From Stephanodiscus triporus (taxonomy: Eukaryota; Bacillariophyta; Thalassiosirophyceae; Thalassiosirales; Thalassiosiraceae), in NCBI GenBank assembly GCA_036939755.1, contig JALLAZ010000166.1:1-38326 (forward strand): a stretch of DNA of 38,326 nt, in the 5' to 3' direction. Numbering within the stretch: the first letter of the stretch is position 1; every line of letters starts with the position of its first letter. The notes beneath the pieces were generated by a model, which saw only the letters and a list, made by a program, of their open reading frames with translations, made no database searches and had not been told where the DNA came from. The position numbers and the translations under genes are program-made. Shown piece by piece: positions 7,233 to 24,793 of the stretch.

Positions 7233-7247
7233 TTAAGATTTTTCCTT
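7222..7247. repeat. Perfect tandem duplication of 13 nt over the rhamnosidase stop codon
   Basis: AAGATTTTTCCTT occurs twice back to back (7222-7234 and 7235-7247). The minus-strand TAA stop of the GH78 gene lies at the junction, so the last codons and the stop were formed or shifted by the duplication. Confidence 0.8.
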
Positions 7248-10200
7248 ACCATATGTGTCGGAATCAGAACAGTACGGGCCAATATCCTTGACCGTTGGGT
7301 AGAAATCTTCAATGGATGCAATACGCCAGTCTTGCTTTCCCTTGACCTCAGGCTTGAGCTGCCAGTTGTCTACCATGACATCATATAAACCATGTGCCAA
7401 ATCGACCTCTAACCCATTTTCTGAACTTCCATGTATTTTTTCAGGCGAGCTCCATGCAACGTCAAGTGACGAGTGGAATAGAAAGCTACTGCATGGGGTT
7501 CCGATCGCTTTCTTTCGGTATACTTTCACAAACAATTGCTCTTTCTTATCATATTCCCAGTTGTAGTTGAAGCCCTTTTTAGCTTTTCGATCTTTGTTGC
7601 ATTCTTCCGAGGACAAGGCCTTGATCTGTTCGATGTCAGGGAGATGTATTGCATATTTCATTACCGAGTCAACCCCTTCTCCGTTGCTATATTCCGGCAG
7701 ACGGAAAATTGCATTGCCATCTGGAGGGACGTATAGGCGGATGTGAATTTTCACGACGGCTGAATCATACAAATCTTCTTTATTTGGAAGATCTTCGAAT
7801 TTCCAAGCAATGGAAAAATCTCCTCTTGTTGTGCCCTGAGTAGCACCGGCATAAACGATTGCGCTTGCGGAATTGGGGAACCTCGGCCAGAATAAAACTT
7901 TTTTGCCAGCCGTTGTCGTGGGATGGAGTGCCACGCCCGCTACAGCTGACGCCATCCACTCCGCTGACGCCCCCAACATTGGGTGATTTTTGGAGTATAA
8001 GTCTTCTGATCTCCACCAACTTTCCCAGTGCGTAGTAGCATTATGACTCAGCTGGTACTCAAATGTCCCAACGCCAAAGCCAGTGGCTTTGGCAAGCGCA
8101 ATGTTATGAAGTCCGTTTTCGCTCAATGTTTTCAGGGCATACCTCACAGCAAGAATGCCTTCGCTGAACCCATACCATTGCGACCAGCCCATGCTCCATA
8201 TGGATCCCCGTTTTGTCACTTCGCCAGATTCGATCATTTCATTTAGCGTATTATCGGAAATATTTCTGAGGAATGCCGCCTCTTCCGATCCAGGCCAAGT
8301 ATGTCCTTGCCGAAATAAGTAACGATGCAACACTGTGCATCGTTTATTACCAGGAACAACACGAGAGTACAAACTTATCTCCGGCCCAGGGCTTAATCGT
8401 GAAGCTTCAATCTCTGGAGGACGAAATGAACCATCCTTGCGAAGATAGAGTCTGGCTATGCGATGTTTCACGGAGTTGGCCACCTCCAGTGCCGTTGTGG
8501 CCTGCTCCACTTTGTCAAGTTTCGACGCCATGTAGGCGATGCTTCGTGCGGTAGCCATATAAAAGCTTTGATGCGCCAACCAGGTATCACGTCCGCGCAT
8601 GGAAAGCCAGTCCCCGAGGCCACTCCCTTCTTTTAGATAACCTTTCAAGTTGTCATCGTAGTTCTTGGCACGGATCCCTTCGTCAAAATATTTTTGAAGG
8701 AAGGTAAACCATCGCAGGTGATTATTATATGAGTCCTCGAGAAAATTCAAATCTCCGTAGTGTTGCATGTGCCGGGCTGTAATCACGGCAGGTGCACTTC
8801 AAAGTCAAGAAGTTGTCACAAGTATTGTGAGGCGTGAATGAATGAGACCAAGGGGTACGCAGTCATTAAAAATTAAAACTCACCTAGCCCAGACTGTCTC
8901 CCCTGCCCCGTGACCAACACCGGCATAATCGTTCAAGTTGAGCCAGTGGCTGGTGCCAGCATATGCACCATTATCCCACTGCTGGTCCCTCCAATCAAAA
9001 ATGACCTTGCGATAAAACGAACTCAAATCATACAGATGAAGACTCGCAGGTGAATCCGCAATGACTGGCATTAATAAAAGGAACAATTGAAGATAGTGCG
9101 TTGAGTAAGTTTTGAAGAACTGATCCTCTGTAATTGAATGATAAGAGGTAGACTCACTATCTCCTCCGTACTGAATCTTTTCTCTGTGTGGGCAATCCGA
9201 CTGCACACCCAGCATGTTGCTATTCATGGCATTCTTGACAAGCTCGTACCCTCCATTGATCCGTACATTGCTCGAGCTAAAGTCGCCCCATTCTTTGAAT
9301 GCTGTTCGATATACCAGCGCATGCATGCCAAGAGGAGGCTCGGCAGTGCAGCAGATTTCAGCAAAGCGAAAAGAATGCGTGGTGAAATGTGACTGGCGAG
9401 CGTCAGCGAAACTGCCCTTGATCGACGAATCACCATCCGAATTCCGAGGGAGGATGTAAACGTCCCGTTGCAACAATGATCCTGGCTCGAAATGATCCTT
9501 GGGGTAACATGGCCCACCCTTGACTTGTGCTGAGCCGGCTGGCTTTGATTTATGCCTCGGTCCTCCATCGTGAAGTCCCATTCCAGCGACGGCTAGTGTT
9601 TTCGGGTGTCATGAAGTCAATGTGAGTTGGAAATTGAATGAAATTACATCATGACGGGGTGAAAAGATGTTCATGGCACAGAAAAAGGAACGACATTCAT
9701 CCTCTCTCACCAGCAATATTGATGTCCCCCGTCGACAGCTCGATCGAATCTCCATACACAACAGTTATGAAAGATTCATTGGGACCTAAAGTGCTCATGC
9801 CATGTCCACGGGGATAAAGACCATCGACCGGCACGATAGGATCAGGTAAGCCATTCTGGAACCGCACCATGCCGGAAAATCCTTTCCCGAAATCTAGCAT
9901 CCACCGTCCCTGGCCCAAGGAATACATTTCATCAGGATCGACGCGCTCCACCGGCATAACGGGAGGGATTTCAATCGGTATCAACCGTCCAATGGGAGAT
10001 AGCTTGTGCTCTGGTATGTTCAAGTGCCTGCCATTCGTTGTCCTTGCATTAGATTTCAGGTGGAGGGCGGTCCTCCATGATTCCAACGTGGTGTCACTCT
10101 TATACAACAATGGTTTCACCCAGGAATGTATTGAGGAAGTAGATGTATCGGAAACCTCATCACTCCATCCCTCCCTAGTATCCCAACCACGAAAGTTTGC

Positions 10201-12728
10201 CATGGATGCCAAGTCAATATATTCTCCGGAGAACAGGCTTGATTCCCGCAAATGACCCTTAGCAACCTGCCACCCCGACGATGAATGTCCGGTGGAGAGG
10301 AGTACTTTGGTCGTCCCAGATTTTTTGTACGTCACGTACAGTTGAGCAATGCAAGTGACAGCACCGTGGGGCATGAGGTACAATCGTATGAAACCGCCGG
10401 TGATGGGTCGATGATCCCACCATCCTTGGAGGTTGAGGAATGGGGGAGAGAGAAATGGGAGAGTGAAAAGAGCGACGTAGGAAAGCAAAACAGGGCGGTG
10501 AGAAAAGGATGCATTTTACATCTATCCTCCACGCGTGTTTTGAACTCTGAGAACAACGTACAACGCTCGACTCGGTTGTGCGCAGTGTTGATCATATTCA
10601 AGCAACGCAAAACAAACAAAACGAAATGAATTAAACAAATAAGGACAATGATTATCTCCCGTCTCTCGCTTCTTCTTCTTCTTCATCGTCACTCACCCGA
10701 TCCCATGGATATACCCACAACGTGTTCATCCTCCTCGCTCCTGTTCTCCTCCCTCACCTCCCTCTCCTCCTTCTGCTTCTTCATCGCCTTCTTCTTCGTT
10801 GTCGTCTTCTTCTTGGACAAGAATTTCGTGACGTCATATCCCCGGTACGAAACACGCTGCGCGAAGTCCGTCAACGGCGGATCCAACGGCCCCGACGACG
10901 ACAGCGGCACCCCGTCGAAACTCACCCGGAAAGATCCCAGTCCCGACACCACTAGCAACGCCGATGCGATCTCATCGTCCACCTCCTCCCCCCCCTCCAC
11001 CGCATCGCTGATATCGTTCATGTCCAACCTGGCGCGGAAGACGGGAAGCTGACTCCTCCTCTCCCAGTTGCGACACGCGGTCTCTCTGTGTTCGGGGAAT
11101 TTGCCCCAGAACGCGCCGGCGTCGGTAACGCTCCACGATTGGACATCGATGGGATGGGATATCCATCTCGCCGTCCATTCGTCCTCGTAGTCGTCGCCGT
11201 CTTCTCCACGCTCGTCGCTCCCCTTCTCGTGAACTCTCGTCTGACTCGGGCCGATGGCAAACTTGGTCCATTCTGACGTCGACGACGATGATAGCTTGTG
11301 GGAGGAGGAGTCCCAGACCGTCACCCTCCAGTCGACGATGGTCCCCACGTTTGACTTGGACATTAGCAGCCTCGCGCAATCGCCTGTGCAAAGCACCACG
11401 TCGGGGAGTCCGTCCGGGACGTTCACCTTGCCCGAATCCCACAGCGGGGGGGGTCCCTCCTCCTCCTCCTCGTCGTCATCGTCCCCATCATCGCTATGAC
11501 GATGCCGGGCACGGCGCGCCTCGATGCGATATGCCGTCGTGCGCGTTCCTTCCCCGCTCCTAGAGTCGGGACGCACGCGCGACCTCCAACGGAAGCCGAG
11601 GACGCTCGACGACGACACCACCGGCAGGAATTCCTCGTCGACGTATTCGTTCGGGGTGTCGTTCGGCGAGCCGGACGCGCGTACCACGCGTTGGAGGTGG
11701 TTGACGCTGAGATCGAACGGGATGATCGCGCCCTTCCTGCCGTCGGCGACGTCACCGTCGTCCGGGCGAGTCTCGTGGCGGGATCCGTCCACCTCGGCCG
11801 TCGCCGCCGCCGACGACGACGACGTGAACGCCTCCGCCTTGATCCAGTACTTCCTCGGTGGAGACGCGGCGGCGGCGCCGCCGTCATCAATCACGTTCGG
11901 GTCGTCCTCCAACGCGTCATCGTCGGCGGCGGTGAGGAGAGGCGGCGGCTTCAGGGGTGACAATAATCCCGCCTTGGTCCGTTTCCGCTTTCGTTTAGCA
12001 TCAGACTCTTCCTCCTCCTCTTTGGAATCCTCCTCTTCCTCTTCCTCTTCCTCCTCCTCTTTGGAATCCTCCTCTTCCTCTTCCTCTTCCTCTTCCTCTA
12101 CCTCTTCCTCTTCCTCTTCCTCTTCCTCTTCCTCGTCATCGTCATCATTTTCATCCTCCTTCTCCTTCTCCTTCTCCTTCTCTTCCCATTCTTCTTCCTC
12201 CACCTTCTCCTTGTCGCCGTCCTCCTCCGCTTCTATATTGTCATCCTCCTCGCCTTCTTCGCCTTCCTCCCCAGCAGTCCCCCTCTGGGGGACTGCGACC
12301 GCCCCGCCGATCCTTTTAATCTCCCTGGCGATCCCTTCATGCTCCTTGACAAGCGCCCTCAATTCATTCTCCAGGGCCTCGATCTCGTCGGCGACTTCTT
12401 TTTCCCCACCCGCCCCCTCCCCTCTCCACTCTCCCGACCCTCGTCGTCTGCCACCGGCGACGCCGCCCTTGCGTCCGAAATCGTCGCCATTGACACCATC
12501 GTCGTCAACGGAGGCGGAGAGACGACGGAGGACGTTGGTCGAGACGGCGACGAGCGTCGTCACCGCGACCATCGCCGCGACCAGCACGACTAAAACGAGG
12601 GTGCGGGCGCTCGGACGACAGCGTTTGACGTTGCCGCCATTGTCGCTGATGCTGTTCCTCCGGGCTGCGATCGGCGGAGGGGGGGCGGCGCCCGCGCGGC
12701 GGCGAGATTGCGGGATGGACGACGACAT
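7233..12728 (-). CDS. Membrane-anchored alpha-L-rhamnosidase, GH78 family (four exons, about 1672 aa)
   Basis: Hydrolyses terminal alpha-L-rhamnose from glycans, by family. Exons: 12728-10697, 10424-9711, 9592-8884, 8796-7233; phases 1, 1, 2 join into 1673 codons. Order of parts: basic N-terminus, signal-anchor at residues ~43-64, an acidic Glu/Asp-rich stalk, an Ig-like N-domain with a YRI..LWDSGKV..DWRVTVWD pattern, the first beta-sandwich (residues ~520-680, ARWISHPI to GISMGSGWW, with a Lys-rich insert at ~637-668), the Bac_rhamnosid_N domain (ESSLFSGEYID), then the (alpha/alpha)6 catalytic domain. DCPHREK contains the probable general acid E1053; further signatures are HMQHYGDLNFLEDSY and TTHWESWW. 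The topology puts the enzyme in the secretory pathway or at the cell surface, where rhamnose-containing extracellular polysaccharide is a plausible substrate (inference). A GGTAAG donor-like site precedes the stop, so a short extra exon is possible. Confidence 0.9.
8797..8883 (-). other. GH78 gene intron 3 (87 nt)
   Basis: Donor GCTAG|GTGAGT, acceptor TTGAAG|TGCACC, phase 2. Joining restores a continuous ETVWASAPAVITARHMQHYG stretch that fits GH78 proteins. Another AG nearer the exon (TTACAG) would break the frame. Confidence 0.8.
9593..9710 (-). other. GH78 gene intron 2 (118 nt)
   Basis: Donor GCTG|GTGAGA, acceptor CACTAG|CCGTCG, phase 1. The joined product reads INIAAVAGMGLHDGG. Confidence 0.8.
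10425..10696 (-). other. GH78 gene intron 1 (272 nt)
   Basis: Donor GGATCGG|GTGAGT, acceptor CTCCAAG|GATGG, phase 1. The joined product reads VVGISMGSGWWDHRPITGG, matching the family pattern in which a short strand ends in G-x-GW. An AT-rich stretch lies in the middle of the intron. Confidence 0.85.
12009..12140 (-). repeat. Acidic tandem repeat in the rhamnosidase stalk
   Basis: The plus strand is an almost pure TCC/TCT tract, read on the coding strand as runs of Glu. A 39-nt unit repeats (TTTGGAATCC at 12021 and 12060), giving DSKEEEE-type 13-residue repeats. It probably forms an extended, negatively charged stalk and may vary in length between alleles. Confidence 0.8.
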
Positions 12729-15273: not shown

Positions 15274-18200
15274 TCATTCGCGGCCTCGATGGATATTACC
15301 TCCCTCGCTACCTATCGCTTCGAACGGGGAGGAGGGCCACGAATCAAGACGACGACGACGGAGGAGGGGATGAAAAAGAAGAAGGCCCGCCGCCTCCGCC
15401 GCCGCTCCCTGAGGCGCTGATGCTCGCCTGGGAGGAGGTCCGACGTCCGCCGCCAAAGGTCCGACTGCGAACGACGGCCGCGACGGCGGCTAGCAACGGC
15501 GGCATGACGAGGACATCGAGGAAGAGGAAGCGAGGATCCCGCCGCTCCGGCGACGGCGACGCGAACGCGGGGGGTGATGATGGCGCGATGGACATCGACG
15601 GCGGCATCAATGCCTTAGTCGTCGAGAATGACGGAGACGACGACTACGACGGCGAGGGCGATTTCGATGGGAGGACCGTCGCCGACGACGAGCGGGTCGG
15701 CCGCGATGGAGAAAGGACGGCGGTGGGGTCCGGTGGCGGCAGGAAGAGGAGGCGCGGCGGCAGGAAACGAAAGAGCCGCCAAGGACGCGAGATGGGCGGC
15801 GATAGAGGAACTGCGACGGCGACGACGACGGCGATGACGAAGATCACTGAGCACGATTGGATGCACTATCGGATGATGGCGCGGGTCATAGTCGCTCCAT
15901 TCACATTGCCGCTGATAAAGTGTGTCAAACGTCAAATTATCATCGAGGAGGAGGAGAAATTTAAGTCGACAGAAACACAAAATGACTCCGTCGAGCGGAG
16001 AAGTTCGACACCGATCGAGGAGGAGGAAAGGAAGAAGAAGAAGAAGATATGCACAGTGATATCGTCAACCGGGGCACCATTGCCGCAAGCTGCCGCTGCA
16101 CCAGACGCTCACGCTACATCTGTGGCAGTGACGACAATGGCAAAGTCATCCGTCGAGGTTTCGTCATCATCGAAAGCAATGCCCCAAAACGTCTACCAAA
16201 AGTTTACCCGCGGTAGTTCCTTCCCTCGAAAAGATGGCGAATGTTCTTTCGTTCGTTCGGTAACGGCGGCATCGTCGTCCCCTTCGTCACGTGAATCCCT
16301 TGAAACCATCGTGGACGGGGCGGTGTGCACGTTGGCTCGACGGTCGCATCGTTTTCGACAGTGCAATCGTCATTCATCGTCGTCGTTGTCGTCATCAAGG
16401 CAGAAGGATGCGGTCATCGTCAATCATCGTCGCCGACGGAGACGAAAAGCAAAAGCGACAGCAGGGGCAAACCGAGATTTTATTGCCAGCAACTACTCCG
16501 CCAATGCAGCGATTGGACGAGATAATCACAGCGAAAAGCCTCATCCCTCCTCGTTCTCCTCCACGAGGGGCGATAATCATTGGCTCCTGGAAGAAAATTT
16601 GCTCTCCGCCGGTTACTCCCTGGGCAGCGGAGGCGATCATCGTACGACGCATCCGCAAAGGATCAACGATGACGATGACGGGAACGACGATAACCAACGG
16701 CAGCGGCCACGCCAATGGTTACGCGGCTGCCCCAACATGGCGCCTGGCATCCACTGCCTCCATCCCAATAGGCTGACGTCATACGCGCGTTCGTCTCCAT
16801 TCATGAGGTGAGCATTGACTTTATTGTTAGGTGGAGTCATCTTGCCTCATCTCATTTTGGGATCATTCATAGGTTCTTACATGCCACGATACGCGACGAT
16901 GCCTTGTTGAGGGAGATGCTGGTCAATGCCATCCTGCTTGTGCCGGTCGTGTCGACGTCGACGACAGAGTTGTCCGATCGAACGTCATCGTCATCAGATT
17001 TCCATCGCGGGAACTACTTCCAATTGTGCGGTCCTCCGCTCACGATGGTTTCAAAGAAATTCGACTGGATGGCGAATAGCACGAGGAAGGGCGGAAAGTC
17101 GTCAGCATCGGCTGCCGCGACCAACGGGGCGAAAGATAACGTCCATCGCGATGAATCGAGCAGGAGGGATACTGAGTCAGACCGATGGGATCCCAACAAG
17201 CCGATTCCTCGAGGCAATCTGTTTTACTGTGAATTTTATACTAAACACGTTGGCCTGTCGCCTCGACATTTGCTTAACCAGGAAGAGAACAATCATTGCG
17301 GTGACAAAGAATTAGAAGGACCTGCTCACCAACCTCAAAGTCTTTCAGGACGGCAACGAACGAGTTATTCGAATAGTATCAACGACGTGAATGTCAAGCT
17401 TCTGGATGCCATGGTAGGGATATGGCAAACTGGCAGACCCAAATGTGACGGGAGCAGCAGTGACGGCAGAACTGGAGTCATCGTTATCAATAGCAATAAC
17501 AAGCGCAGAGGTCGATGGAGGCGCCTTCGAGAAAGTGGCATTGCCATTTGCCGAGAAATGAGGCGATGTCATCGACGATGTGATTACGCGCGACTACTCG
17601 AACGTCATTGCCCACTGCCGATCATCGTCAAAGAAGGAACAGCACCACCAAACACGCATGGTGCTGCTACCGATGCCGATATTGGGGCAGCCCTATCTCG
17701 TCTCGTGACTTCGCATCATACACCCGTTGAAAATGTCGGCTCGTTCATCGAGGCTGTGCTGAAGAACGCGTTCCCGCACTCATTTTGGGGGTCGCGTCAC
17801 AACTTTCGTCAGGTTGTTCGTACTATGAAAGTATTCACGAGGCTTGGCCGGACAGAACAACTTCCCCAAAAGGCCGTTGTGGATGGAATACGCGTCCTTG
17901 ACATGGCCTGGCTGGTTCGTCGTCGTCATCATCATCATCAAAAACATGCCAATAATGCGAATGCAAAAAATAATAATGATGAGGATCGATGTCACTGCCT
18001 TCGTCGTCCAGACAAGCTCTCTTTATCTGACCATGAGTCCGCTACCACACTCGCGTCTAACGTCATGCGCTGGTTGTATTGCCAATTCATAATGCCTCTC
18101 CTGCGCTCTACCTTCTACATCACCGAGACAGAGTTCACTGGCTCGAACGTTCTTTATTACCGACGGCCTGTATGGACACGAATAAAGTGTCTGTTCTTGC

Positions 18201-20065
18201 TCAAACAGCGGCAATACCGAGAGATGAGCAGGGAAAAAGTTCTTAAAGTCCTGTCAAACCACAATGTGGGGTGTCCTCCAGCACCCCTGCGCCTTCTACC
18301 CAAAAAGACGGGCATACGTGCAATTGCCATGTTGTCCAAGTCGTGTGAAGTTGAGACTACAACAATGAGGAGTGACAATGTGAAAGAAATTGGATCTGAA
18401 AATGCAGTCAAGGTACAAAGCAAGACGAGTATTATCCCTTCGCCGAACAAGACACTGCAGCCCATCTTCAACGCACTAAAATACGAATATGAGAAAAAAC
18501 CATCGTTGTTCGGGGCCGGTATCCTCGGGTTGACGGAGTGCTTCCCCTCGTTTTGTCTGTTCGTGAAGGCTCTCAAACATCATCGGTCCAATGGCTTGGG
18601 ATTTCCTCCACCCACAACTGCACGACAGCTCAACGTAGGTGGTAGCAGTGTGGATGGGGGTGGTCGAAACACTCTATATTTTGCCAGCGCAGACATTAAG
18701 CATTGTTACGACACTATTAATCAAGAGCGCTTGTACGAACTGATGCGATCTGCCGTCAAAGAAGACGTTTACTTGACGAAGAACAGTTTCGTACTTCACT
18801 CTAAGGACAACGATAGCTCCATGCGCTGCCGATGGAAGAAGAGCACATTTCCCCCTGAACAATTTTCCCATACCTCCGACAGTTTTGCGGAGAAGTACTT
18901 CAATTCAATTTTTGTCGATGGAGTGTATTGCTCGACGGAGAGAAAGGAGACCATTGTCGGTCTGCTGCGTGATCATATTTTTGGGCAGGTGGTGGTAGCC
19001 AACGGTAATGGTGGTCAACGATGTCTGCTCCAAACGGAAGGGATACCACAAGGGTCGATTCTATCTTCCATGCTATGCAATTTTTACTTTGGAGACATTG
19101 AAGGTATTCTATTGGATGGTGTCTTTGAAAAACGATCCTCACACGTCATCAGGGGGGGTACCTCTCGTGATTGCGATTCCTTGCTCGTCCAAATCAATCA
19201 TGAACTTCATCTTCTTGTCCGACTTGTCGATGACTTCCTGCTAATCTCTACTAGCAAATCGGCATCCATTCGCTTTTTGAAGAAACTCAATGAAGGCATC
19301 CCTAAGCTTGGAGTGAAAATCAACAGCGATAAGTCACTAGTGAATTACCCCATCTCAGTGGAAAATACTTCTACGGGGGAAATGGAAGCAGTGAAAGTCT
19401 GTCAAAACTTTTTCCCATGGTGTGGATTACTAATTGACACAAGAACGTGCGAAATAAGTTTGGATTGTAACCGCTTTCATGGATCGCATGCAACTGACAC
19501 AGTCGTGATTCACCGAGCGGGAAACGAAGGGTTGAATATCAAGAAAAAAATGAAAGATTTTGTCCGACCACGGTGCTGTCAGAAATTACTTTTCAGCAGC
19601 TTCATCAATGGAATCGACATGGTCCGGTTAAACTTTCATCAAACATTTCTGCTTTGTGCCATCAAACTTTTCCATTACGTGAATGAAAGCAATAGTGGAA
19701 CGGCTTCGTTGACTCATCAAAACTTCATTTACACTTCAGCTGTTGAAACGATTCGTTTTGCATACCTCTTGATCTCGTCTAAAATTAAACACGGAAATGG
19801 AAGTGCTGCAAAGTCTTTCGACGTGGACGGCACGACTTTCCGGCTAGCGTGGAAAGATGCTTTGTGGCTTGGAAGGCATGCATTTTTACGTGTCTTCCAA
19901 GGATCAAGAGAACGTTATGCACACCTGTGTTGTCTATTCTCTGAGTCCTCAAAGCCATCAAATGTGAAAAAGCTCCTTGAAGTGACGAAACGGGCAAGGA
20001 GGATATTTCCACTAGAATTGCTTCAACCTAAGCCTGAGGGGACGCGGCGAGTGCGGGGACGATAG
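15102..20065 (+). CDS. TERT: Telomerase reverse transcriptase, TERT (two exons, about 1632 aa)
   Basis: Catalytic protein of telomerase; copies the telomerase RNA template onto chromosome ends in the nucleus. Exons 15102-16807 and 16873-20065 join in phase 2 to 1633 codons. The N-terminal region carries a TEN-like start (PAVVLRALGR), a long disordered stretch with poly-Asp and basic clusters that may act in nuclear import, then GCPNMAPGIHCLHPN and NYFQLCGPPL (~616-625). The RNA-binding domain has FWGSRHNF (F873) and motif T FYITETEF..YYRRPVW (~983). RT motifs follow: RLLPKKTGIRAI (~1042), motif A ADIKHCYDTI (D1176), motif B' GIPQGSILSSMLCN (G1292), motif C LVRLVDDFLLIS (D1355, D1356), KSLVNYP, and primer-grip FPWCGLLIDT. 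The C-terminal extension ends normally. All three catalytic aspartates are present. The length exceeds the usual 1000-1250 because of the disordered N-terminal half. Confidence 0.95.
15243..15272 (+). repeat. (GAC)10 microsatellite in TERT exon 1
   Basis: Ten uninterrupted GAC codons give a poly-Asp run early in TERT. Such a run is likely to vary in length between strains. Confidence 0.9.
16808..16872 (+). other. TERT intron (65 nt) with two in-frame acceptors
   Basis: Donor CATGAG|GTGAGC, acceptor TTCATAG|GTTCTT at 16871-16872, phase 2. The joined product ARSSPFMRFLHATIRDDALL aligns well with the W..LL..RIGDD pattern of TERT N-domains. An upstream AG at 16829-16830 keeps the same frame and would add 14 residues, but would leave an intron of only 23 nt. 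Confidence 0.8.
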
Positions 20066-21060: not shown

Positions 21061-21271
21061 TAGAAATTAATGGAGGCGTTTTGTCGAAATTAGACCGTAT
21101 CTCCTCTAATAATGGTCTGATTGACATGATTGCAAGTGGAAAAGTGTTTACTGATGTGTTGGCAATGCATTTCAACACTTGAATCATGTTCATCGGACAG
21201 TTATTGGCTGAGATATAGTATCACAAAGTATTGGTGTGGTGCGTCGGTTTTTGAATATTTTTCCTAAATAT

Positions 21272-24200
21272 TTAACTATGCATGTTTATCATACCCCTCT
21301 CCCCAGCACTCTTTGCAAATTGGCTCCTTGCAGATGGGACAACCCATTCTTGATGCTCTGCACATTCTTTTCCTTACCGCTGCCCTTTGCTCCGATGCTG
21401 TAGTACCTAGCAATTTGCGGTAACACATCCGACAATAATGTCCACCAATGCCGAGATCCACTCGCTCGCCCGTACATTGGTTCGTCTTCACCCGTGTTCC
21501 GCACTTATACTGCACCACAACTTTCTCTGTTTTTGATGGGCGATGTGTGATGCCACTAGTGATATTGTTCAAGCAAAAGAAGCATTTGTCACAGTCACAG
21601 GGTACAAATGCCCCCTGACGCATGAAGTTTGGTCTCGTTGCAGACTTTCCGTCCCAGTGAAGACCAACCCCGTAGTTCATGATAGAAAGTGCAAGATCGA
21701 TCTGAAAATCATGACGTCCAGAATGGGTATCCTCATACCGCTTCCACTGTTTTTGACCAACGTTACCCTTGACAAGGAAGCTCACCACAACATACACTGC
21801 ATGGATCACTCTGTCCAATGCCCAGCAGAAAATTCTCAAGTAATATCGGTTGGTGCGGATTGTGGTCGAGTAGTCGGCGCTATCCCGATCGTTCCTGTCG
21901 ACAGCATTGTAATTTGCAACATAATCAGCTTGTGCTCGTGGAGCCGAAATAGTATCACGTGTACGTTTGCCTCGTATGCGCCTCTGGACAGTCATGTAAT
22001 CACTCCGTCCCACATTGTTGGTAGAAAGAAATGATACCTGTTTTTTGTCTTTCCAGGTCGTACATTGGACGTAGTATGGTGTCCGGCCTGCACGTAATTT
22101 CAGACACGCCTCACGAAACCAACCTCTCTCCAATCCATTACGCGCTCCATTGGACAACTTCAAAAAGGGAATGTCATGATCATCACGTGTCTTCTTATCG
22201 GTGAGAACGATCGTGCCAACCATTGTCCATTTATATTTCTCAAATAGGTGCTTTGCAAGCTTCATCGATGTGTAGTAATTGTCTGTGTACAGTGTGCGCC
22301 CACGTGGTCCTGTGAGCTCTGCCTCATTCACCAGTCTATCACAAACATCCACTGTGGTTCCATCCGTCTTCTTGTCCTTGTTACCGCAATAGACCTCGTA
22401 CGCAAGCATAATCCCCGAGATAGCACAACACACACAGAAAACCTTGATGCCGTGCTTGATTGGTTTGGCTGGCATGTACTGTATGAAGGCCACCGCACGT
22501 CCACAGTACTTGATCATTGATTCGTCTATTGCGATGTCTTTGCCGGCGGTCCATACCTTTCGTAATCCCTTCCCGATTGCGTCCAAGGCATCTCTGACTT
22601 TGAATAAAGGATCATATCCATCGCTACCCTCTGGTTGCTGCAGTGAGTTGTCAGCAAAGTGTATGTTGCGCCGCAAGAACTCATATGCATCGCGCGTCAT
22701 TGAATTCCTAACGTATGGTATCGATAGTCCATATGGCTGATTATGCCACATCTTACGTGCTGTCCTCTTCTCGGAACCAAAATGTGCCCCTTGAAGTATA
22801 AGGATCCCGATCCACGTGATGATGTACCCTGCCGAGATTTGATATTGTACTCGTTCGTTGTCCGCCCGATGACGTCGATTGGGGGTTGGAACACCATCAG
22901 TTAGAGCAGGCACCGAAACATAATAGAATGCCTTCATTTCATTTCCATCAGAATCCTTTTTCTTCCGAGCAACTACCCAATCATTATAGCAGTATTTTTC
23001 CGTCATTCGTGCAACTTGCTCGAAGAATACCAACGGTAGAATTGCAAGAAAAATTTCACACAGCCCTGTCGATGACCGTACTACATTTGTAATGAACTGC
23101 GTCGGACCGGCCTTTGGACCCCCGTGTGGGCCTGCATATGTGTCTTGCCATTGAGGCTGCCACGTGATGTTATGGTCATGTGTGAGCTCGACCCACGGAG
23201 CGTGGACAGGACGAATCGGCTCCATGTCCTTCTTCCACTCATTTTGAAGTGTCCTTGAAAATATTTCATCAATCGGCTGGATAGACGAGGACCGATCGAT
23301 GAATGGCACAAAAGAACGATGGATGAGAATATCTGTCTGTGCCTTCACGTCGACAAGACTATCATGTGCACCACTCAGATTGGTGCCATCGTTGGCATAC
23401 TTCCACACAACTCCAAGTTCATACGCTTCGATCTTGGACTTTGCCTTGTTGAAATGGCAACTCTTATACTTCTCGATCACACGATATGGGTCGATGAAGT
23501 ATTTGATATTTGCTGGCAAAGAATACCTCGAGTTTGGGGCTTGTGTGAGTCGCCATAGCCACTTCAGGTCGCATGCCTCACCATTCCATGCCACAAGTAT
23601 AGCAGTCTCTGACGGCCGCACGATACTGTGGAACCAACGCTGGAACTCGGGCCAGACGGTTCTCATGTTCCCGGCATTCACGATCCTTTCATCGTCAGGG
23701 AGGATGCCATGCACGGTGATGCTCCTCTGATCCCAATACTCTGGACGAACTTCAGGGTTAACGTATCTGTTGAACGTCTCTCTTACCCGATCGATGCCAT
23801 CAGCATGGTCAGACCCCACCTTCCTCCCGTCCATCTTCATTCGTACGATCTCAGCAGAGATCTGAACGATTCCCGCAATCTCCCCAGCTGTCTCAATATC
23901 AAACGACATAAAAACAGACAGCTGATTGCGAAGTATATGATGGGCAATGGATCTGCCTTTGGGGACATAATCCCCCCCACCAACCTCCCCAATATCAGCA
24001 GTATATTCGTTTGTCTCCCCACCCCCCAATTCCACCTCCATTCCTATCGTTTCATCGGCCAAATCGACACCCTCGTCACCAACATCCTGCTGGAGTTGAT
24101 CCCCAAACGGGTAGTTGGGAGTGTCCTCAATACTATCAGGATCGAGGGATTGAACTGAAATGGAGCCAAAATGGCTCTGATCGGACGCCAGGAGCCCTTC

Positions 24201-24475
24201 CTCGCAGGAACCCACAGAATCCTCATCTGTGGGGCTCTCGAGGAGGCCAGCCCTGGTCTCCCCCAAATTTGTGGTCTCGCGCAGTCCAGAATCCATCGTG
24301 CGCAAGCCAGAATGTGGCCGATATGCTGTCGCAAGCGTCCCTTAATTTTGGGCGGTCGCGCGCCGCTGGAATATAAGAATGAGGTGCTCCGGTGTGGGAG
24401 GTGCGCGCTATGGTTTCGTGTTTTTTTCGGAAATCGCCGAAATATTTTTCTGTTGTGGCGGCGGGAAAGGGTTAA
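21272..24475 (-). mobile_element. piggyBac-superfamily DNA transposon, boundaries uncertain
   Basis: The transposase gene lies between two TTAA tetranucleotides, the piggyBac target site: 24472-24475 on its 5' side, followed inward by CCCTTTCCCGCCGCC, and 21272-21275 immediately after its stop codon. Another TTAA at 21067-21070 coincides with the point where aminopeptidase similarity disappears and may be the true end. I could not find matching terminal inverted repeats, so the limits given are only a guide. Confidence 0.55.
21276..24296 (-). CDS. DEDDh exonuclease-piggyBac transposase fusion with cysteine-rich tail (1006 aa)
   Basis: A single uninterrupted frame from ATG at 24296. Residues ~1-115 are acidic and disordered. 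Residues ~120-335 form a DEDDh (DnaQ/RNase T-like) 3'-5' exonuclease: FMSFDIET (D133, E135), LVAWNGEACDLKWL (D243) and SGAHDSLVD (H311, D316, the His-x4-Asp ExoIII motif). Residues ~400-845 are a DDE_Tnp_1_7 piggyBac core: KDIAIDESM (D591), LYTDNYYTS (D672) and YNAVDRND (D800), the expected catalytic triad. Residues ~900-998 carry CxCxxCxxC, CxxC, CxxC and CxxCxxxxCxxC-type clusters, the zinc-binding tail that in piggyBac proteins recognises element ends. Every catalytic residue of both enzymes is present and there are no stops, so the gene looks recently active or conserved. The exonuclease-transposase junction lies inside the single frame, not at a splice site. Confidence 0.9.
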   Translation of the reverse strand: MDSGLRETTNLGETRAGLLESPTDEDSVGSCEEGLLASDQSHFGSISVQSLDPDSIEDTPNYPFGDQLQQDVGDEGVDLADETIGMEVELGGGETNEYTADIGEVGGGDYVPKGRSIAHHILRNQLSVFMSFDIETAGEIAGIVQISAEIVRMKMDGRKVGSDHADGIDRVRETFNRYVNPEVRPEYWDQRSITVHGILPDDERIVNAGNMRTVWPEFQRWFHSIVRPSETAILVAWNGEACDLKWLWRLTQAPNSRYSLPANIKYFIDPYRVIEKYKSCHFNKAKSKIEAYELGVVWKYANDGTNLSGAHDSLVDVKAQTDILIHRSFVPFIDRSSSIQPIDEIFSRTLQNEWKKDMEPIRPVHAPWVELTHDHNITWQPQWQDTYAGPHGGPKAGPTQFITNVVRSSTGLCEIFLAILPLVFFEQVARMTEKYCYNDWVVARKKKDSDGNEMKAFYYVSVPALTDGVPTPNRRHRADNERVQYQISAGYIITWIGILILQGAHFGSEKRTARKMWHNQPYGLSIPYVRNSMTRDAYEFLRRNIHFADNSLQQPEGSDGYDPLFKVRDALDAIGKGLRKVWTAGKDIAIDESMIKYCGRAVAFIQYMPAKPIKHGIKVFCVCCAISGIMLAYEVYCGNKDKKTDGTTVDVCDRLVNEAELTGPRGRTLYTDNYYTSMKLAKHLFEKYKWTMVGTIVLTDKKTRDDHDIPFLKLSNGARNGLERGWFREACLKLRAGRTPYYVQCTTWKDKKQVSFLSTNNVGRSDYMTVQRRIRGKRTRDTISAPRAQADYVANYNAVDRNDRDSADYSTTIRTNRYYLRIFCWALDRVIHAVYVVVSFLVKGNVGQKQWKRYEDTHSGRHDFQIDLALSIMNYGVGLHWDGKSATRPNFMRQGAFVPCDCDKCFFCLNNITSGITHRPSKTEKVVVQYKCGTRVKTNQCTGERVDLGIGGHYCRMCYRKLLGTTASEQRAAVRKRMCRASRMGCPICKEPICKECWGEGYDKHA

Positions 24476-24793
24476 CCCGTTACAGTGGCGCAGCCCCTAA
24501 CGGCTTGTCTTCACAGAAAGATTTTTTTCATATCGTATTGTGTATGAGGGGTGTCGCTTGGTCAAAATCTCAGTTAATATTATGAGAGAGAGTAAAAAAA
24601 ACCAATTGAATTGGAATGTGTAATAGTTGCCATCTGGTAAAAAGAGAGAAGTGCCATCTGGTTGGTGTCAGAGAGGTTACCTAGAGTAGGTAAGGTGTCT
24701 TTCTTGCGCCGCCGAGCGACGCGGGGCGGTTCTCGTGTTATGTTGTGATGTGCGCTATTCCCTTCCCCATAAAATCGACGCAAAAAGCGAACC
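24476..24793. other. Intergenic region between the transposon and the plastid-protein gene
   Basis: No gene seen. Just outside the TTAA there is a short stem (CCGTTA and TAACGG, about 24477-24504). The sequence shows no continuation of the aminopeptidase gene. The remainder should hold the promoter of the 24794 gene. Confidence 0.45.

Follow-up and report, generated by a model that had tools for sequence, protein, structure and literature searches.

The piggyBac transposon moves by a chemistry in which the freed 3'-OH of the transposon attacks the opposite strand four bases into the flank to make a hairpin; the broken donor is left with complementary TTAA overhangs, which re-anneal scarlessly (PMC7351741). 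Because its excision is scarless and requires no protein besides the transposase, piggyBac is widely used in genome engineering. KolobokD, which belongs to a TTAA-targeting superfamily other than piggyBac, encodes a DEDDh exonuclease resembling Exuperantia, TREX, and ERI1 (PMC9587614), and in the Dada transposons of Laccaria and Ectocarpus a DnaQ-like 3'-5' exonuclease is built into the transposase polypeptide (PMC3706591); the authors of these papers suggest for such systems the processing of cleaved 3' ends and the degradation of a DNA intermediate from its 3' end (PMC3706591, PMC9587614). For piggyBac, a DEDDh nuclease is mentioned in one clause of Bao and Jurka 2013, where it is credited to a talk by Kapitonov (PMC3627910); the meeting report cited for that clause contains, in its accessible portion, neither "piggyBac" nor "DEDD" and mentions only conserved host-derived proteins in transposons (PMC3520738). 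Here we analyze a 38,326-nucleotide stretch of DNA from the diatom Stephanodiscus triporus (contig JALLAZ010000166.1, positions 1 to 38,326; hereafter the window), in which a single open reading frame almost certainly encodes the transposase of a piggyBac-type DNA transposon joined in frame to a predicted TREX-like DEDDh exonuclease.

The frame runs uninterrupted on the minus strand from an ATG at 24296 to a stop at 21276 and specifies 1006 residues, which are arranged as follows:

21276..24296, minus strand: complete open reading frame of the predicted exonuclease-transposase, 1006 amino acids plus stop
23976..24296, minus strand: acidic N-terminal region, residues 1-107, predicted to be disordered (predicted local distance difference test score, pLDDT, under 50)
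23247..23963, minus strand: predicted TREX-like DEDDh 3'-5' exonuclease domain, residues 112-350, from profile and predicted fold
23892..23900, minus strand: ExoI motif D133-I-E135, from the alignment of relatives
23568..23570, minus strand: ExoII residue D243, aspartate in 40 of 43 fusions and glutamate in 3
23349..23366, minus strand: ExoIII motif H311-x4-D316, from the alignment of relatives
21807..23057, minus strand: piggyBac-type transposase domain PF13843, residues 414-830, from Pfam
22524..22526, minus strand: D591, catalytic residue of the DDD triad, from the alignment of relatives
22281..22283, minus strand: D672, catalytic residue of the DDD triad, from the alignment of relatives
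21897..21899, minus strand: D800, catalytic residue of the DDD triad, from the alignment of relatives
21297..21599, minus strand: cysteine-rich C-terminal domain, residues 900-1000, with C900, C902, C905, and C908 almost invariant

The transposase half was assigned by Pfam, which matched DDE_Tnp_1_7 over residues 414-830 with 144.3 bits against a cut-off of 22.4 (E 7.5e-42). The same domain was found in every member of alignment A1, a set of 43 fusions picked from 83 sequences for covering both domains, with fragments excluded, and D591, D672, and D800 were unchanged throughout it. The predicted model matches the structure of piggyBac over residues 394-909. Together with terminal repeats that start with CCC and adjoin TTAA, the transposase domain, the three catalytic aspartates, and the fold place the element in the piggyBac superfamily.

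For the exonuclease half of the window protein Pfam returned nothing significant, the best match being Rv2179c-like (E 0.052), and RNase_T (PF00929) gave no hit, although nine of the 43 fused relatives matched RNase_T at E<=0.01. Since Pfam alone was insufficient, relatives, profile, and fold were used instead. TREX2 and TREX1 were the closest folds to the predicted structure, with Exuperantia also similar by fold, while CRN-4 and ERI2 were the best sequence-profile relatives among solved chains. Both the exonuclease fold and the D-x-E, D, H-x4-D active site (D133, E135, D243, H311, and D316) are present. An earlier note, made from the DNA letters alone, had proposed a DnaQ/RNase T-like exonuclease followed by a piggyBac core in one unbroken frame at 21276..24296; both enzymes, their order, the single frame, and its position hold, as do the numbering of the residues named and the presence of the catalytic residues of both enzymes, with the strand now refined to minus. 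A DEDDh exonuclease was rightly recognized, but its closest type is that of TREX, ERI, and Exuperantia and not DnaQ or RNase T as such.

Compared with piggyBac of Trichoplusia ni and with piggyBat, the window protein has about 240 extra residues, which form the TREX-like DEDDh domain and lie between the disordered N-terminus, a region also present in piggyBac itself (PMC9499001), and the position corresponding to residue 117 of piggyBac. TREX1 and TREX2 are DEDDh 3'-5' DNA exonucleases too, but do not form part of a transposase. The domain resembles the same three proteins named for KolobokD, namely TREX and Exuperantia by fold and ERI2 by profile, yet KolobokD has a different transposase superfamily and 5'-RR/YY-3' termini and is reported from animals (PMC9587614); the window element does not have the 5'-RR termini of Kolobok beside TTAA, as its termini begin CCC, and both Pfam and fold assign its transposase core to piggyBac. 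The Dada exonuclease differs in being of the DEDDy type, in lying within the DDE core, and in belonging to another superfamily (PMC3706591). The clause in Bao and Jurka 2013 ties a DEDDh nuclease to piggyBac, as here, but gives no sequence, host, or architecture (PMC3627910). The earlier note knew of no described piggyBac lineage with this architecture, and we likewise found no description of an exonuclease-piggyBac diatom lineage in open-licence PubMed Central (Repbase and subscription papers lay outside the search); the architecture is, however, not wholly undescribed given that clause, which places partial priority elsewhere and makes the finding somewhat less new than first thought.

To place the protein among its relatives, two parts of it were used as queries. 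Of 2048 candidates for residues 90-420, 27 proteins passed E<=0.01, and 23 of these had a precomputed transposase domain; of 6051 candidates for residues 400-1000, 76 passed E<=1e-10. A third search, started from an alignment of 12 of the most divergent fusions, yielded five new proteins among its 10 hits and no additional named host. The relatives from these searches, including the five from the third, and the window protein made up the 88 sequences examined. More than 75% of the exonuclease profile was carried by 61 of these, and all but one of the 61 also had the transposase; this profile was built mostly from the sequences that it scored, and its E-values for relatives and genome loci are not independent. 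The earlier note had allowed that the exonuclease part might fail a profile search or that homologues might always keep the two domains on separate genes, whereas both domains occur together in 60 of the 88. Ten sequences contained part of the exonuclease domain and 17 contained none; seven of the latter (P0077-P0083) are distant plain piggyBac proteins, and the other ten have their first match at residue 1-57 and thus begin with the transposase part or close to it, which makes loss and truncation indistinguishable for them. Named sources of a near-full domain were Discostella pseudostelligera (P0007) and Thalassiosira profunda (P0024), both Thalassiosirales, Bacillariophyta by a taxonomy check, and T. 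exigua (P0063) and Cyclotella meneghiniana (P0017), which we take to belong there likewise. The only other organism named among the relatives was the spider Parasteatoda tepidariorum (P0077), whose protein is without the exonuclease domain. For the window itself, a silicon transporter (PF03842, E 8.9e-228) encoded by its genome points to a diatom as the host. Scans with A1, each resting on two peptide patterns, gave 26 pattern matches in viral contigs and 45 in a collection of genome contigs with none confirmed as a relative in either, and a viral or prokaryotic source was rejected on this basis.

Exonuclease domains of the fused lineage diverge down to about 30% identity. Within A1, D133, E135, H311, and D316 were unchanged in all 43 fusions, D243 varying as listed above, and the eight invariant columns among the 228 of the exonuclease included four of the five active-site positions (P 3.1e-6). 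Among the 56 sequences covering more than 85% of the domain, taken with no preselection, 51 kept all five DEDDh residues, the exceptions being four with glutamate at 243 and one with histidine at 133. Sequences excluded from A1 include P0002 (H at 133), P0007 (gap at 243, N at 591), P0008 (E at 243), and P0062 (gap at 133, K at 135). Glutamate at the D243 position, seen in P0049, P0065, P0072, and P0008, is scattered over the tree. Separate trees of the two halves, as the earlier note had proposed, were built by a quick maximum-likelihood method for 45 fused sequences and were congruent: 18 of 42 splits were shared, and pairwise patristic distances correlated with r 0.92, the best of 1000 permutations reaching 0.32. 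This congruence indicates that the exonuclease and transposase domains were inherited together, and the comparison points to one old fusion in which both domains have travelled together. P0065, which comes partly from a transcript collection, is fused and has E at 243, an indication that transcription spans the junction in at least one relative. Judging from these sequences, the fusion is more widespread and better conserved than is visible from the window alone.

The ends of the element were traced through related copies in the genome and through the following two features of the window:

24460..24475, minus strand: 5' end of the element, TTAA at 24472-24475 and then inward CCCTTTCCCGCC
21095..21275, minus strand: 3' non-coding part common to other copies, 86-94% identical to contigs C392, C749, C317, C1162, and C1030

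Termini beginning CCC beside TTAA were found at the 5' end of the window element and at both ends of C392, a 1236-base derivative with TTAACCCTTTCCTGCC at each end. The sequence TTAACCCTTTCCYGCC occurs 11 times in the 21.65 Mb genome, against 0 for a reversed-pattern control, and the element ends are of the TTAA/CCCTTTCCYGCC type. In C749 lies a decayed copy, about 3.1 kb long, that has the exonuclease and then the transposase between such ends, many stops, and a mutated right TTAA, and C1030 fuses the exonuclease start to the tail end of the transposase. Towards its 3' end, the window copy can be matched to other copies as far as 21095 by DNA search and as far as 21072 by local alignment with C749. 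On its right side stands TTAA at 24472-24475; on the left, neither a terminus nor a 3' terminal repeat was recognized in the window, and a TTAA at 21067-21070 lacks the CCC repeat. The 55 bases at 21095-21149 are exactly equal to the end of contig C1236, which runs outward into a TTAACCCTTTCCCGCC end. Such an exact match is what a branch in a k-mer assembly should produce, and it appears to be one, implying that the window copy is either truncated or misjoined on its left; C1236 may hold the true 3' flank of the transposon, and the reading frame is unaffected. The right flank, 24472-24508, is a 37-base repeat with one other occurrence, in C251 (95%), which continues through the TTAA without an element; we did not accept C251 as a true empty (excision) site, the 37-base match being just a short repeat.

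We propose, with a probability of roughly 0.55, that the fused exonuclease acts in cis on DNA during transposition, presumably trimming DNA 3' ends made when the element moves. Dozens of relatives retain both active sites and the two halves were inherited together, which speaks for a part of the exonuclease in transposition, and KolobokD offers a precedent. That there is one fused protein, not two separate ones, suits action in cis. The DDE core would cut and paste at TTAA via hairpins, as in piggyBac, and the exonuclease, which would sit just before the start of piggyBac's ordered core, would work in cis within the synaptic complex. As its substrate we tentatively suggest the donor flanks, where the recessed 3' end of each broken flank would lie beside the 5'-TTAA overhang after excision. 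Because flank 3' ends would be exposed while those of the transposon would be protected, initially by hairpin formation and later by the bound core, we infer that donor-flank trimming is the likeliest single role. Trimmed flanks could no longer undergo simple TTAA re-annealing, and with it footprint-free loss, and the trimmed break would pass to other repair, some of which could copy the element back.

Several observations weigh against this proposal. It is not obvious what donor-flank trimming would gain, since the host already goes unharmed when TTAA is repaired seamlessly, and the 5' single strands that a 3'-5' exonuclease leaves behind are ill suited to strand invasion; the trimming step and its supposed benefit, less simple reversal and more templated repair, are thus the weakest part. 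Glutamate replaces aspartate at 243 in three of the 43 fusions, and P0002, P0007, and P0062 deviate or have a gap at a catalytic position. This window copy may not be mobile, given that its 3' terminal repeat was not recognized. Lastly, the CRN-4 and ERI relatives also degrade RNA, making an RNA substrate a real rival.

Such a substrate would fit counter-silencing, in which the exonuclease would degrade small RNAs or other host RNA directed against the transposon, its fusion serving only co-expression or nuclear entry. We regard this as unlikely: the best profile relatives among solved chains, CRN-4 and ERI2, speak for it, as ERI-type enzymes act on RNA, but the closest folds are those of DNA exonucleases, Pfam scans revealed no RNA-binding domain, and anti-silencing does not need an unbroken fusion kept through the whole lineage. 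Proofreading, in which the exonuclease would clean up the ends and joints of the transposon when a step fails or is mis-primed (abortive hairpins, unjoined 3' ends), would improve fidelity and leave donor repair unchanged. The argument for action in cis applies to it equally, and it is in line with the processing of cleaved 3' ends proposed for Dada (PMC3706591), but productive piggyBac intermediates hold the transposon 3'-OH as a hairpin or bound end, the trimming of which would destroy the element, so this explanation too seems improbable. An extension of donor-flank trimming, in which the whole lineage would have given up strictly seamless cut-and-paste, with the exonuclease destroying the donor TTAA ends to bring about template repair and copy gain, a strategy that it would share with KolobokD, is equally doubtful. 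It is most improbable that the exonuclease fold is a non-catalytic platform for DNA binding or dimerizing, as the retention of all five DEDDh residues in 51 of 56 domain-covering sequences goes beyond a platform's needs. An assembly or gene-model artefact at the junction, for which the nearby branch might be cited, is ruled out by independent relatives, since the branch lies outside the frame, both domains recur in the 60 fused sequences, C749 from the same genome has the same domain order, and the fused P0065 comes from a transcript set.

That a natural lineage has retained two nuclease active sites within one protein, for long enough that its exonuclease domains diverged to about 30% identity, suggests that the minimal piggyBac reaction is not the sole workable one, and the fusion makes the effect of a transposase-tethered 3'-5' exonuclease on excision, hairpin processing, and donor repair directly testable. 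Together with KolobokD and Dada, it suggests that 3'-5' exonucleases have been recruited repeatedly by DNA transposons.

Not every piggyBac in this genome carries the exonuclease, as its profile did not match seven other piggyBac loci (L001-L003 and L005-L008, of 29 matching stretches); some of the exonuclease-less groups have 900-residue open frames with long N-terminal regions of unknown fold. An element of roughly 1 kb at 614-1645 of contig C1241 (L046) consists of two copies, in inverted orientation, of the 3' end of the exonuclease-piggyBac family, 66% identical over the full length; by its sequence this is a fold-back derivative resembling a miniature inverted-repeat transposable element, and C1315 and C776 hold relatives of it.

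Elsewhere in the window, a 1085-amino-acid frame at 16808-20065 on the plus strand matches the telomerase RNA-binding, reverse transcriptase, and TERT C-terminal domains in Pfam, identifying it by sequence as the gene for the telomerase catalytic subunit, which adjoins the transposon. Successive frames at 7233-12728 on the minus strand match portions of alpha-L-rhamnosidase (PF08531, PF17389) and probably represent one gene with introns; a 679-amino-acid frame among them also has a weak CDC45 match below the cut-off.
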